Assembly (NCBI GenBank): GCA_024687165.1
Contig: JAILEY010000080.1
Span: 1 to 35,705 of the forward strand
Source: Treponema sp.
GTDB lineage: Bacteria > Spirochaetota > Spirochaetia > Treponematales > Treponemataceae
Reading direction: 5' to 3'
DNA: 35,705 nucleotides
Shown: one piece after another, positions 216 to 9,406 of the stretch
How the letters are laid out: each line of letters opens with the position of its first letter
Position numbering within the stretch: position 1 is the stretch's first letter
The notes under the pieces: model-generated
What the model saw: only the letters and a program-made list of their open reading frames with translations
Database searches by the model: none
What the model was told of the DNA's origin: nothing
Position numbers and translations under genes: made by a program

Positions 216-543
216 ATTCCTCCCTGACTGAGTTTCTGGTTACTATTCAGTTTAGAGAGTTTTATATGATTTGATAATGGCTTTTTTAATTGAACTAGAA
301 TTTGGCGATTTCCGCTGGACTTAGGTGTGGCTGAAATCAGCGAACTCTAACAAGCACATGGTTAATATTTGTGGTAAAGAAGCAGTGAAGAGTAAGCTTT
401 TGAAAATCTTGGGTAAATAAACTTAAATTTTATTATAATTATTTTAGTTGAATTAAAAAAAAATAAAATGGGATTTAGTAAATAATTCACGGAATTAGAA
501 ATTAAATTTGCAAAAATATGGATTTTTTATTATACTACATACT
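216..543. other. Non-coding gap upstream of the RloA-like gene
   Basis: About 330 bases without a supportable gene. It holds the leader of the minus-strand transposase-like fragment on its left. A 20-codon plus-strand ORF at 358-420 could be a gene remnant but matches nothing I recognise. On the right is an A/T-rich stretch that probably carries the promoter of the defence pair. A TATAAT occurs at 434-439, but no -35 box is convincingly spaced from it. Confidence 0.5.
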
Positions 544-1782
544 ATGTTGATTCAGTTTTCTGCAAGAAATTTCAAATCCTTTAAGGATTCATTTACTCTT
601 GATTTGTTCACAAATAAAGACGAGTCGGTTTGCCCTATTTATGAACAAGGAAATAATAAAGTTTATCCATCGGCTGTTTTTTACGGCGCTAACGGAAGCG
701 GTAAGTCAAATATTTTAAAAGCCTTTACAATGATGCGCCGCCTTGTGCTGAATGAGGATAAAATCATTCAGTCTACAGATGTGCTTCCTATGAATAGGTT
801 CAAACTTTCTTCTGAGACGGAAGATGATACAACTGCATTTGATATTACTTTTTTTTCAAATGATAAAAAATACAAATATGGTTTTGAATATGATGAGAAA
901 TGTGTATATTCTGAGTATCTTTATGTTTATGAAACAAATCGTCCTACAATTGTGTTTGAATACGATGTTGACGAGAATAACGGCGAAATAAAAATCACAA
1001 AATATGAGGACTTGAAGACTGTTAGACATTTGAAAAATTCTCTTTTTATCGTTGAAGCTGACAGAAATGATAACGAAGAAGCAAAAACTGTGCTAAACTG
1101 GTTTAAGTCAGCTCATTATGTTGAGTATGCTTCTAGACATTCTCTTGCCCCTGATTATTGGGATAATTTAAACAAACCTGCCGTAAAAAAGATATTTCAA
1201 AAATTCATTTCTGATGCGGATATCGGAATAAAAGATATTTTTCAGGATTCCCATAGAGTTAAAAATCCTGACATGATGTTGGGTGTGCCAAAGGGAGCAA
1301 TCCTTGAAGAAGTCTCTGTTAAAACATTACATTCAAAATTTAATTCTGAAAATGAATATTTGGAAGATGAGAAATTTAATCTTTTTGAGGATGAATCTTT
1401 AGGAACTCAAAAATATTTTTATGTAATCGGACCTGTAATAGATACGTTGCAAAAAGGTACGGTTCTTTTTCTTGATGAACTTGACGCAAGCTTACATCCA
1501 ATCCTTACACAAAAGATTCTTTCTTTGTTCAATAATAGAGACTCAAATCCTAACGGGGCACAGCTTATTTTCACTTCACAAGACACAAACCTCTTAAACC
1601 AGAATTTGTTTGATAAAGAGCAAATTTGGTTCGTAGAGAAAGACAAGTATGGCTCATCTCATATAGCAAGTCTTAGTGAATATAAAAATGTTCGTAAAGA
1701 GCACAAAATAGAGCGAAATTATATCATGGGAAAATACGGGGCTATTCCTTATCTTGGTGATTTTAATTTTGAGGAGTTGTAA
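544..1782 (+). CDS. RloA / AbiLi-type AAA-family ATPase (anti-phage defence)
   Basis: A 412-residue cytoplasmic ATPase of the OLD/RloA-like AAA family. The N-terminus MLIQFSARNFKSFKD is the usual start of this family, so I place the start at ATG 544 rather than an in-frame TTG at 508. Neither has a clear Shine-Dalgarno. A Walker A GANGSGKS lies at residues 48-55. A Walker B LFLDELDASLHP follows near 306-317, with a switch-like FTSQDTNLL near 343. The region between is long and divergent, as in RloA proteins. Its stop overlaps the start of the next gene (TAATG), and that partner carries an RloB domain. The pairing is what identifies it as the ATPase half of an AbiL-type abortive-infection system, presumably sensing phage and controlling the RloB effector. 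The role is inferred from family and neighbour. Confidence 0.85.
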   Translation: MLIQFSARNFKSFKDSFTLDLFTNKDESVCPIYEQGNNKVYPSAVFYGANGSGKSNILKAFTMMRRLVLNEDKIIQSTDVLPMNRFKLSSETEDDTTAFDITFFSNDKKYKYGFEYDEKCVYSEYLYVYETNRPTIVFEYDVDENNGEIKITKYEDLKTVRHLKNSLFIVEADRNDNEEAKTVLNWFKSAHYVEYASRHSLAPDYWDNLNKPAVKKIFQKFISDADIGIKDIFQDSHRVKNPDMMLGVPKGAILEEVSVKTLHSKFNSENEYLEDEKFNLFEDESLGTQKYFYVIGPVIDTLQKGTVLFLDELDASLHPILTQKILSLFNNRDSNPNGAQLIFTSQDTNLLNQNLFDKEQIWFVEKDKYGSSHIASLSEYKNVRKEHKIERNYIMGKYGAIPYLGDFNFEEL

Positions 1783-2495
1783 TGCCAAGAAAAAGTCATG
1801 CATCATTTAAAACTACAGCTCCTGAAGTTCGTAAAGGGGAAAGTCTTTTCCAGAAAAAGGCTTTTTTAATTGCATGTGAAGGAGTTTGTACAGAGCCAAA
1901 TTATATAAAAAACTTGGTGAAAATTGAAAAATTAAACAAGAATATTGCAGAAGGTACAACCGTAATAATTGCGCCTCATCAACATTCTGATCCATGTGGT
2001 GTTCTTACAGATTTATTATCTATATCTGATAAAGAAGATTTTGATGAATGCTGGATTGTTATAGATAGAGACGCTAAAGAATTTAAAGGTAAAGGCTTTG
2101 GTGGTCATACGAAAGAAAATTTTGATAAAGCAATAAAATATGCCTCAGAGAACAATATAAAAGTCGCTTTTTCTAATCCATGTTTTGAATTATGGATTGT
2201 TCTGCATTTTGAATACAGAGATACAGAATGTTCACGAGAATCTATTCAAAAGAAAGCATTAGAAAAAGTTAATTCTTTGCTTCCTCAAAATAAAAAATTG
2301 AAAAATGTTGATGAATTAAAGAGTTTTGACGAATTGTATTCTATTTTGAAAGATAAAACTTCTTTAGCAATAAAGTTTTCAGAAAAACTCTCTGAAAACG
2401 AAGCAAAACAGAAAAATCCTTCTACAAGTGTGCATAGGCTTGTTAGTACAATTACTACAAGTACAATGTTACATATTGGGGATGAAAATAAATGA
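1782..2495 (+). CDS. RloB / AbiLii-type protein, TOPRIM-like nuclease partner of RloA
   Basis: A 237-residue protein with the RloB domain. The motif CEGVCTEPNYIKNL near residues 32-45 has the conserved acidic E-G entry of TOPRIM-like folds. WIVIDRDAKE near 95-105 gives the D-x-D metal-binding pair, and SNPCFELWIVLHFE near 133-146 is the RloB signature. Translation is coupled to RloA: a GAGGAG lies 5 nt before the ATG, and the ATG overlaps the upstream TAA. RloA-RloB pairs are known as an abortive-infection defence (AbiL) and often sit inside restriction loci. The likely effector action is nucleic-acid cleavage, but that is inference. The stop overlaps the next ATG (ATGA), so the RhuM-like gene was part of the same operon. 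Confidence 0.85.
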   Translation: MPRKSHASFKTTAPEVRKGESLFQKKAFLIACEGVCTEPNYIKNLVKIEKLNKNIAEGTTVIIAPHQHSDPCGVLTDLLSISDKEDFDECWIVIDRDAKEFKGKGFGGHTKENFDKAIKYASENNIKVAFSNPCFELWIVLHFEYRDTECSRESIQKKALEKVNSLLPQNKKLKNVDELKSFDELYSILKDKTSLAIKFSEKLSENEAKQKNPSTSVHRLVSTITTSTMLHIGDENK

Positions 2496-3022
2496 AAAAA
2501 AATCAATCTAAAGATATCTCAATAAAAAGTTCCGCTGCAGAATATCTTACTTACATTGCCGCAACAGGTGATGCTCCAGAAAGCTATGAAATGAGATATG
2601 AGGATGAAAACATTTGGTTGACCCAAAAAATGATGGCGACTTTATATGATGTTGATGTTAGAACTATAAATGATCATATCCAGAAAATTTATTCTGATGA
2701 AGAACTGACTCAAGAGGCAACTATCCGAAATTTTCGGATAGTTCAGCAGGAAGGAGCAAGAACTGTATCTAGAGAACTTATGCACTATAATCTTCAGATG
2801 ATTATTGCTGTTGGTTTTAAAGTAAATAATGAGCGTGCTGTTCGATTTAGAAAATGGGCCGGGCAGATTGTTAAGGATTATACAATTCAAGGCTGGACTA
2901 TGGACAAAGAGCGCCTGAAAAAAGGGCACATGTTCACAGATGAATACTTTGATCGCCAGCTTGAGCAGATTAGAGAAATAAGACTTTCAGAAAGTGTATC
3001 CTGTATTGAAATATTATCATAA
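2492..3022 (+). pseudogene. RhuM-family protein, missing its C-terminal half
   Basis: The first about 165 residues are a clear RhuM (virulence RhuM) family N-terminus, with IWLTQKMMATLYDVDVRTIN, the IRNFRIVQQEG segment, a YNLQMIIAVGFKVNNERAVRFRKWA core and GWTMDKERLKKG. Family members usually run to about 330-350 residues, continuing from REIRLSE into an RRFYQK-type stretch. Here the reading frame leaves the family after REIRLSE (near base 2990) and stops nine codons later. The natural explanation is a deletion that fused the middle of the gene to sequence just upstream of the next gene. RhuM genes commonly accompany restriction and Rlo genes, which fits the neighbours. The product may still be made, since its start is intact and coupled to rloB. 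Confidence 0.75.
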
Positions 3023-4934: not shown

Positions 4935-4963
4935 TTGACGGTTTTGCATTTCCTAATTATATT
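4935..4963 (+). promoter_or_regulatory. Sigma70-type promoter of the toxin-antitoxin module
   Basis: TTGACG at 4935-4940 and TATATT at 4958-4963 are separated by 17 bp, close to consensus. The -10 ends 11 nt before the ATG of the Panacea gene, predicting a leader of only about 5 nt. It gives the module transcription independent of gmd. Confidence 0.65.
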
Positions 4964-4974
4964 TGAATTTAGTT

Positions 4975-5535
4975 ATGAATACGGAAAAACTTTTTCAGAC
5001 TGTTGCGTATATTTTGTATCGCAACGATGACGAAATGGATTATTATAATCTCATCAAAGAATGTTATATTGCTGATCGTAAATCGATTGCAAAAACGGGA
5101 CATTCAATAACAGGGGATGATTATGTTTCTATGAATCGTGGACCTGTCCTGAAAAATCTGTATTCGTTCATCAAAAATAATAATACTGATGAAACAGTTC
5201 AGACAAAATGGAATGAGTGTTTTTCTGTTGATGATAATCATAGAATTCGTATACTCAAAAAAGATATTTCTGACGATTATCTTTCACGTTTTGAAGAAAA
5301 TGTTTTGAATGAAGTCTGTCAGAAATTCTATAAATATTCTTATCAGGATATGAAAAAATACGCTCATTCCGCCGGAGTCTTCCCTGAATGGGAACCTGTA
5401 GAAAAGGGTGTAGAAAAAGTCCTTACAATGCATTCAATTATGAGTGCACTAAAAATCCCAGAAAATGCGATTCAGATACTTCTTGAAGAACAGAAGGTAT
5501 TTGAGCAAGAGGCAGCCTTATTTCAGTCGAATTAG
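4975..5535 (+). CDS. Panacea-domain (SocA-like, DUF4065) antitoxin
   Basis: A 186-residue protein starting MNTEKLFQTVAYILYR. It shows the Panacea layout: an N-terminal KLFQTVAYIL helix, then YNLIKECYIADRKSIAKTG, the G..ITGDDYVSMNRGPVLKNLY core and a helical C-terminus. Panacea domains are antitoxin domains paired with many unrelated toxins; SocA of Caulobacter is the best-known member. I use ATG 4975 because the in-frame TTG 4963 overlaps the -10 box. There is no Shine-Dalgarno, which fits the short leader predicted from the promoter. The gene right after it reads as a PemK-like toxin. The position between gmd and fcl suggests insertion of a stabilising module. Confidence 0.85.
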   Translation: MNTEKLFQTVAYILYRNDDEMDYYNLIKECYIADRKSIAKTGHSITGDDYVSMNRGPVLKNLYSFIKNNNTDETVQTKWNECFSVDDNHRIRILKKDISDDYLSRFEENVLNEVCQKFYKYSYQDMKKYAHSAGVFPEWEPVEKGVEKVLTMHSIMSALKIPENAIQILLEEQKVFEQEAALFQSN

Positions 5536-8040: not shown

Positions 8041-8664
8041 ATGGAAAATAAATCTTTTTATAATCTTTCTTATGGAGTTTTTGTTCTTGGTTCAAAAAGT
8101 GCTGAAAAAATCAATGCCTGTATAATTAATACCTGTTTTCAGGCTGCTGTTGCTCCGGTTCGTATAGCAATTTCATGTATCAATCAGAATCTTACCTGTC
8201 AGATGATTAAGGAGAGCGGGGTATTTTCGCTTTCTATCCTGGATAATTCTTCTACTTTTGAAACGATTTCACACTTCGGTTATCAAAGCGGCCGTGATAC
8301 AGATAAATTTAAAACTTTTGAATATGAACTTGATTCTAACGGCTGCCCATTTATTAAAAAACAGGTTTGTTCCGTTTTTGAATGCTCTGTAGTTTCTTCG
8401 CAAGATTTAGGAAGTCATACTATTTTTATTGCAGAAGTTACTGATGCCCACGTAATAAGTAAAAATCCTCCGCTTACATATGCTGAATATCAATCGAACA
8501 TAAAGCCTGAAAAAAGTACAGAAAATTCTTCATCCAGAAAAATCAAAGGCTGGAAGTGTAAAGTCTGCGGTTTCATTTTTGAAGGGGCAGAACTTCCTCC
8601 TGATTTTCAGTGTCCTCTTTGCGGTCATGGTGCAGAAGATTTTGAACCTGTTTTTGAGGATTAG
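8041..8664 (+). CDS. hrb: Flavin reductase-rubredoxin fusion (high-molecular-weight rubredoxin)
   Basis: A 207-residue cytoplasmic two-domain protein. Residues 1 to about 155 are a flavin-reductase-like FMN-binding split barrel (YNLSYGVFVLGS, INACIINTCFQAA, SCINQNLTCQMIKESGVFSL). After a polar linker, residues 167-205 form a rubredoxin with the iron ligands CKVCGF and CPLCGH and the GAELPPDFQCP signature. This is the architecture of Hrb proteins, which pass electrons from NAD(P)H to flavodiiron NO/O2 reductases or rubrerythrins. Rubrerythrin lies immediately downstream, so electron delivery to it is the natural guess. The gene is monocistronic or reads through the tRNA remnant. The symbol follows the family name; the flavin-domain assignment is by pattern. 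Confidence 0.85.
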   Translation: MENKSFYNLSYGVFVLGSKSAEKINACIINTCFQAAVAPVRIAISCINQNLTCQMIKESGVFSLSILDNSSTFETISHFGYQSGRDTDKFKTFEYELDSNGCPFIKKQVCSVFECSVVSSQDLGSHTIFIAEVTDAHVISKNPPLTYAEYQSNIKPEKSTENSSSRKIKGWKCKVCGFIFEGAELPPDFQCPLCGHGAEDFEPVFED

Positions 8665-8674
8665 CCTGGGGGAA

Positions 8675-8703
8675 TTGAAATTATGACTTTAACTTATTAT
8701 TAT
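8675..8703 (+). promoter_or_regulatory. Promoter of the decayed tRNA, possibly now serving rubrerythrin
   Basis: TTGAAA (8675-8680), a 17-bp spacer and TATTAT (8698-8703) form a good promoter whose start would fall near 8710, five bases before the tRNA-Gly 5' end. It begins immediately after the hrb stop. Because the tRNA is broken, transcription from here should run into the rubrerythrin gene at 8846. Confidence 0.6.
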
Positions 8704-8714
8704 TGAAAACAATT

Positions 8715-8776
8715 GCGGATGTCATATAACGGCTTATTATCTCAGCCTTCCAAGCTGATGACGAGGGTCTTCGAGT
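8715..8776 (+). pseudogene. Decayed tRNA-Gly (anticodon TCC), 3' third destroyed
   Basis: The 5' two-thirds of a tRNA is intact: acceptor strand GCGGATG (8715-8721), a 3-bp D-stem ATA/TAT with AACGG in the loop, and an anticodon stem TCAGC/GCTGA (8742-8746 with 8754-8758) around the loop CTTCCAA, giving TCC (Gly). It then reads GAGGG, two extra bases and a T-loop-like TTCGAGT (8770-8776). The expected 3' T-stem strand (CCCTC) and acceptor strand CATCCGC are not present; the following sequence does not pair. It cannot be charged as a tRNA. A functional tRNA-Gly(TCC) must exist elsewhere. Confidence 0.75.
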
Positions 8777-8845
8777 TGTAATATGGCACTGCGCAATTAG
8801 CTAAAATACCGTATTTTTTTTATAAGATTTTATCAGGAGGAAAAA

Positions 8846-9406
8846 ATGGGAAAATATACTGGAACTGAAACAGAGAAAAATTTGATGGCTGCATTTGCAG
8901 GTGAATCACAGGCCCGAAACAAATACATCTTTTTTTCGGAAGTAGCTGAAAAAGAGGGTAATGATAAGATTGCGGAGATTTTTAAGAAAACTGCAGGAAA
9001 CGAACAGCAGCATGCAAAAATGTGGCTCAAAGAACTTGAAGGAATTTCTGATTCTAATACAAATCTTTCAAATGCAGCAGATGGTGAAAATCATGAATGG
9101 ACTGATATGTACGAAGGTTTTGCCCTTACTGCAGAAAAAGAAGGATTTAAGGAACTTGCTGCAAAATTCCGTGCTGTAGCAAAGATTGAAAAACGTCATG
9201 AAGAGCGCTATCGTTCACTTTTAAAAGATGAAGATTCTAAGGCTCAGCTTGCAAACAGTTCAATAAAAGTCTGGGAATGCCTTAAATGTGGTCACATCGT
9301 AACAGGTCCTTCCGCTCCAGAATATTGCCCGACCTGCGGAGAATACAATCAGTACTTTGAAGTTCGGGATGATAATTATGATTTAATTCTTACCTGGGGA
9401 AGATAA
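8846..9406 (+). CDS. rbr: Rubrerythrin
   Basis: A 186-residue diiron peroxidase of anaerobes that reduces hydrogen peroxide in the cytoplasm. Residues 1 to about 140 are the ferritin-like four-helix domain, with metal-ligand Glu/His in [33 protein letters not shown] and [10 protein letters not shown]. Residues about 150-186 are a C-terminal rubredoxin with CLKCGH and CPTCGE. The length is typical. A strong AGGAGG stands 6 nt before the ATG. It follows the Hrb gene and the tRNA remnant, ends in a good terminator, and is the likely electron acceptor of an NAD(P)H-Hrb-Rbr chain. Confidence 0.95.

Follow-up and report, generated by a model that had tools for sequence, protein, structure and literature searches.

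The tRNA-Gly remnant upstream of rubrerythrin

The window analysed here is a stretch of 35,705 nucleotides, contig C34 of a metagenome-type assembly of a rumen-type Treponema (2.38 Mb in 87 contigs; contamination of the source MAG 0.61%). On its forward strand, a gene for a flavin reductase with a C-terminal rubredoxin-like domain (8041–8664; PF01613 and PF21349) ends 10 nt before a sigma-70-type promoter, TTGAAA-17-TATTAT (8675–8703; 10/12), which itself lies 11 nt before the 5' end of a partial tRNA-Gly(TCC) gene (8715–8768). Unrelated sequence (8769–8800) stands where the 3' strands of the T arm and acceptor stem would be expected, and is followed on the same strand by a ribosome binding site recognized from the sequence (AGGAGG, 8835–8840) and a gene for a 186-aa rubrerythrin (8846–9406; NF045767 above cut-off with 204.6 bits, PF02915 and PF21349). 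The named relatives by rubrerythrin are rumen/gut treponemes, among them T. bryantii and T. porcinum, and in about ten relatives the flavin reductase and rubrerythrin genes are also neighbours, in a different order.

The 54 nt of the remnant (GCGGATGTCATATAACGGCTTATTATCTCAGCCTTCCAAGCTGATGACGAGGGT) have counterparts in intact tRNA-Gly(TCC) genes from several other Treponema species, with identity as high as 100% (E about 1e-22). The homologous stretch opens with the tRNA 5' end (TGCGG), runs through the 5' acceptor strand, the D arm, the anticodon arm with anticodon TCC, the variable loop, and the T-stem 5' strand, and stops abruptly within the T stem at GAGGGT. Past this motif, intact genes continue with TCGACTCCCTTCATCCGC and the window with CTTCGAGTTGTAATATGGCAC; the T loop is missing, as are the 3' strands of the T stem and the acceptor stem. 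We find no copy of the lost 3' half anywhere in the window (the best match has 6 mismatches in 19 positions). ARAGORN predicts no tRNA gene anywhere in the window, nor does Rfam report a match there at gathering or relaxed thresholds. With its 3' strands absent, the gene cannot close an acceptor stem or a T arm, and so does not encode a functional tRNA-Gly(TCC); partial but clear homology with loss of essential parts makes it a tRNA pseudogene, i.e. a remnant. A sequence-only reading of this DNA had described a broken tRNA-Gly(TCC) with intact D and anticodon arms and replaced T-stem and acceptor 3' strands. These points hold. The remnant is otherwise undecayed, which fits constraint as well as a recent origin.

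The junction is known from one MAG contig alone: allowing up to 3 mismatches, its sequence occurs in 1 of 200 genomes of the genus, the source genome, and the fusion is absent from the other 199. Orthologous rubrerythrin leaders hold no tRNA sequence and are unrelated to that of the window, which rejects a conserved rubrerythrin leader. The earlier reading had also proposed looking in relatives for an intact copy at this site; none of the 80 loci fetched has an intact tRNA-Gly within about 6 kb of rubrerythrin, nor does an intact tRNA-Gly of the remnant's type ever occur near the flavin reductase or rubrerythrin in the loci checked. A search of viral contigs for the fusion sequence found none, and its phage matches are confined to ordinary tRNA-Gly genes. 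We found nothing in the literature on a comparable case.

Two other regions of the window carry defence-like or antitoxin-like genes. AAA_21 ATPase, RloB-like, and RhuM-family genes stand in a row at 508–3022, a defence-like cluster close to the edge of the contig and with a lower GC, 33%, and a SocA/Panacea-domain (antitoxin-like) protein is encoded at 4963–5535 with a sugar-nucleotide enzyme on either side.

tRNA types, probable foreign origin, and recombination at tRNA-Gly(TCC)

The source genome carries tRNA-Gly(GCC) genes and, as the earlier reading had proposed to check, an intact tRNA-Gly(TCC) (G000:C49:44127-44199). The latter is a different gene, 83% identical to the remnant over 54 nt, and its presence implies that loss of the remnant's tRNA is tolerated. 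This intact copy is of the type found in the nearest relatives (G021, G084, G043, G001, G090, and G031; rpoB identity 82–86%), whose tRNA is 81–87% identical to the remnant. By contrast, rpoB identity is 74–78% in all 12 genomes that combine a measured rpoB with a tRNA 98–100% identical to the remnant. Across 62 genomes, tRNA identity to the remnant is negatively correlated with rpoB identity (Spearman −0.41); as the genomes are non-independent through kinship, the P value is given no weight. Both flanking genes lean the same way. The flavin-reductase protein is closest to those of three genomes of this distant group (G052, G189, and G062; 72–74% identity, rpoB 75%), and in the rubrerythrin tree the sister is G016 (support 99/95), with weak support for the enclosing group that includes T. 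bryantii. Given that the remnant's type belongs to a more distant group and that both neighbours lean likewise, the segment was probably acquired horizontally; the tRNA fragment would have arrived along with the flavin-reductase gene, and perhaps with rubrerythrin.

The possibility that the flavin reductase travelled on a tRNA-integrated element was considered, since tRNA-Arg/Ser genes adjoin its closest relatives, and was set aside, as this arrangement looks like a chromosomal neighbourhood and is no proof of such transfer. One of them (L068 in G189, about 1358–1401) shows the 3' half alone of a tRNA-Arg(GCG), broken at the anticodon, beside a close flavin-reductase relative; L069 and L070 have an unbroken version of this tRNA.

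Within the genus, tRNA-Gly(TCC) is itself an integrase target. In two relatives (G047, contig C3, and G041, contig C1; loci L207–L210), elements of ~38 kb are integrated at this gene, with a Phage_integrase gene adjoining it and the tRNA 3' part, from the anticodon loop onward, repeated at the far end. These elements mark the gene as a recombination hotspot in the genus. A separate tRNA-Gly(TCC) gene (L223, G183:C31:15504-15636) has two acceptor-stem mismatches (5' strand GCGGATG, 3' strand CTGCCGC), which look as if an integrating element had swapped the tRNA 3' half.

The locus resembles the tRNA remnants left at island or phage integration and deletion sites in that a partial tRNA gene lies at a recombination junction. 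It differs from them in that integration as a rule leaves a second copy of the tRNA 3' part, whereas here the 5' 54 nt and the promoter are kept. The site itself shows no sign of an element, an integrase, or an att copy, the window holds no copy of the tRNA 3' part, and none of the remnant's type was found in the genome. With the 5' part retained and the 3' part lost, the locus does not qualify as a standard att site, and an origin by aberrant excision or deletion is possible. The alternative raised in the earlier reading, scar tissue of an integration or deletion, is the best fit for the origin.

Promoters and predicted structure of the rubrerythrin leader

The promoter at 8675–8703 has the geometry of a working tRNA-gene promoter. 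Among 42 intact tRNA-Gly genes, 34 have promoters scoring 10–11 of 12, mostly spaced 11–15 nt from the tRNA, and shuffling the upstream sequence of the window itself yields an equally good promoter at such a position about 1% of the time. The well-spaced promoter described in the earlier reading is thereby confirmed. That reading had also seen no other promoter before rubrerythrin. A scan of the forward strand from 8560 to 8900 agrees, reporting 8675–8703 as the only promoter-like site; what remains close to the gene is a weak proximal site (GTAATA-18-TAAAAT, 8/12, with only 3/6 in the −35). Its TAAAAT (8802–8807, forward strand) lies 38 nt from the ATG, within the range of orthologues, and lacks a good −35; it may be the leftover of a native rubrerythrin promoter whose −35 went at the junction. 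A promoter of at least 9/12 stands 25–50 nt before the ATG in 43 of 61 orthologue leaders (about 70%; 7.2 expected by shuffling), while the other 18 have no clear proximal promoter. The stretch from the remnant to rubrerythrin contains no GC-rich intrinsic terminator. By sequence alone, the best candidate promoter for rubrerythrin is that of the tRNA, and because the proximal promoter is weak here compared with most orthologues, capture of the tRNA promoter by rubrerythrin is plausible. The co-option proposed earlier therefore keeps its plausibility through the geometry and the weak proximal site, with the weak −10 and read-through as other possible sources of transcripts.

Fold energy also predicts a long hairpin of about 23 bp (8711–8798, forward strand), a feature absent from the earlier reading. 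In this structure, 8771–8798 of the new 3' sequence pairs with 8711–8735, i.e. the tRNA 5' part plus the 4 nt (AAUU) upstream of it, in 7 perfect pairs (AAUUGCG/CGCAAUU) followed by 1, 8, and 7 more, with four G-U. The segment 8710–8800, whose bounds were picked after seeing the fold, reaches −31.2 kcal/mol (z −4.0), a value matched by 0 of 500 shuffles, and 0 of 623 windows of similar GC fold as well. With the tRNA part fixed, only 0.3–0.7% of alternative 24-mers pair as well; when the comparison takes in longer 3' stretches, of various lengths, the share among genomic pieces is 24%, and the entire 131-nt leader folds unremarkably (z −1.5). The hairpin is predicted to be stable from a single sequence, and is best treated as a lead that may have arisen by chance or selection. 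Fold-back synthesis of an inverted tRNA copy was considered as its source and is unlikely if recent, given that the right arm matches the tRNA 5' end, by eye, at only ~14–17 of 22–23 positions and the left arm is unchanged; a repeat finder reported no inverted repeat.

Weighing the explanations

We consider it probable that the truncated tRNA-Gly(TCC) pseudogene at 8715–8768 marks a recombination scar and that its promoter has been captured by rubrerythrin. Under this reading, a distant-type tRNA gene would have lost its T-arm and acceptor 3' strands in a recombination or deletion that fused its promoter and 5' 54 nt to the rubrerythrin leader and weakened rubrerythrin's own promoter at the junction. 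The surviving tRNA promoter would then start transcription near 8710, and the transcript would cross the predicted hairpin before running on into rubrerythrin.

It is rather unlikely that the pseudogene is an inert scar without a role and that rubrerythrin expression depends on the gene's own weak promoter, with its −10 at 8802, or on transcripts reading through from the flavin reductase. The residual −10 at an orthologue-like distance from the ATG, the upstream gene on the same strand, and the 18 orthologue leaders that also lack a clear proximal promoter all speak for this, against which the proximal site is poor, above all in its −35, when set beside a tRNA promoter of 10/12 in working geometry. 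We regard as improbable a leader in which the hairpin of remnant and new 3' partner has been maintained by selection to stabilize or regulate rubrerythrin mRNA: the depth of the fold relative to windows of like GC, the rarity of 24-mers that pair as well, and the reach of the pairing into the AAUU upstream of the tRNA are in its favour, but the evidence comes from one sequence, 24% of genomic pieces pair equally well once longer stretches are compared, there is no Rfam family, and orthologues show no conservation. Similarly doubtful is a model in which the cut tRNA gene became promoter and structured leader in one step, the new 3' arm was selected, and the hairpin controls rubrerythrin expression. 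A chimeric contig joined inside the tRNA gene is very unlikely. The locus comes from a single MAG, tRNA genes can be sites of assembler misjoins, and the remnant's tRNA type is foreign to the nearest relatives; against this, neither that tRNA type nor the sequence after the junction has a second copy in the assembly that could cause a misjoin, contamination is low, and the two flanking genes adjoin in about ten relatives, if in a different order.

Known systems offer partial parallels to the preferred reading of a pseudogene with a captured promoter. In the E. coli tRNA-tufB operon, tRNA and mRNA are co-transcribed, and here too a protein gene would be transcribed from the promoter of a tRNA upstream of it; the locus differs in having a broken tRNA, incapable of maturation, and in that co-transcription is putative. 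The E. coli thrS operator is a case of tRNA mimicry in an mRNA leader, and shares with this locus an anticodon-arm sequence in the 5' leader. However, the locus shows neither a regulatory partner nor conservation, and its downstream gene encodes rubrerythrin rather than a glycyl-tRNA synthetase.

The locus is interesting, if ordinary in kind. If transcripts start at the tRNA promoter, it would be a sequence-level example of a strong housekeeping promoter captured when a tRNA gene breaks, in this case by rubrerythrin, a gene of oxygen defence and oxidative stress. If true, this would mean that the tRNA-Gly recombination hotspot of gut treponemes can leave working promoters behind.
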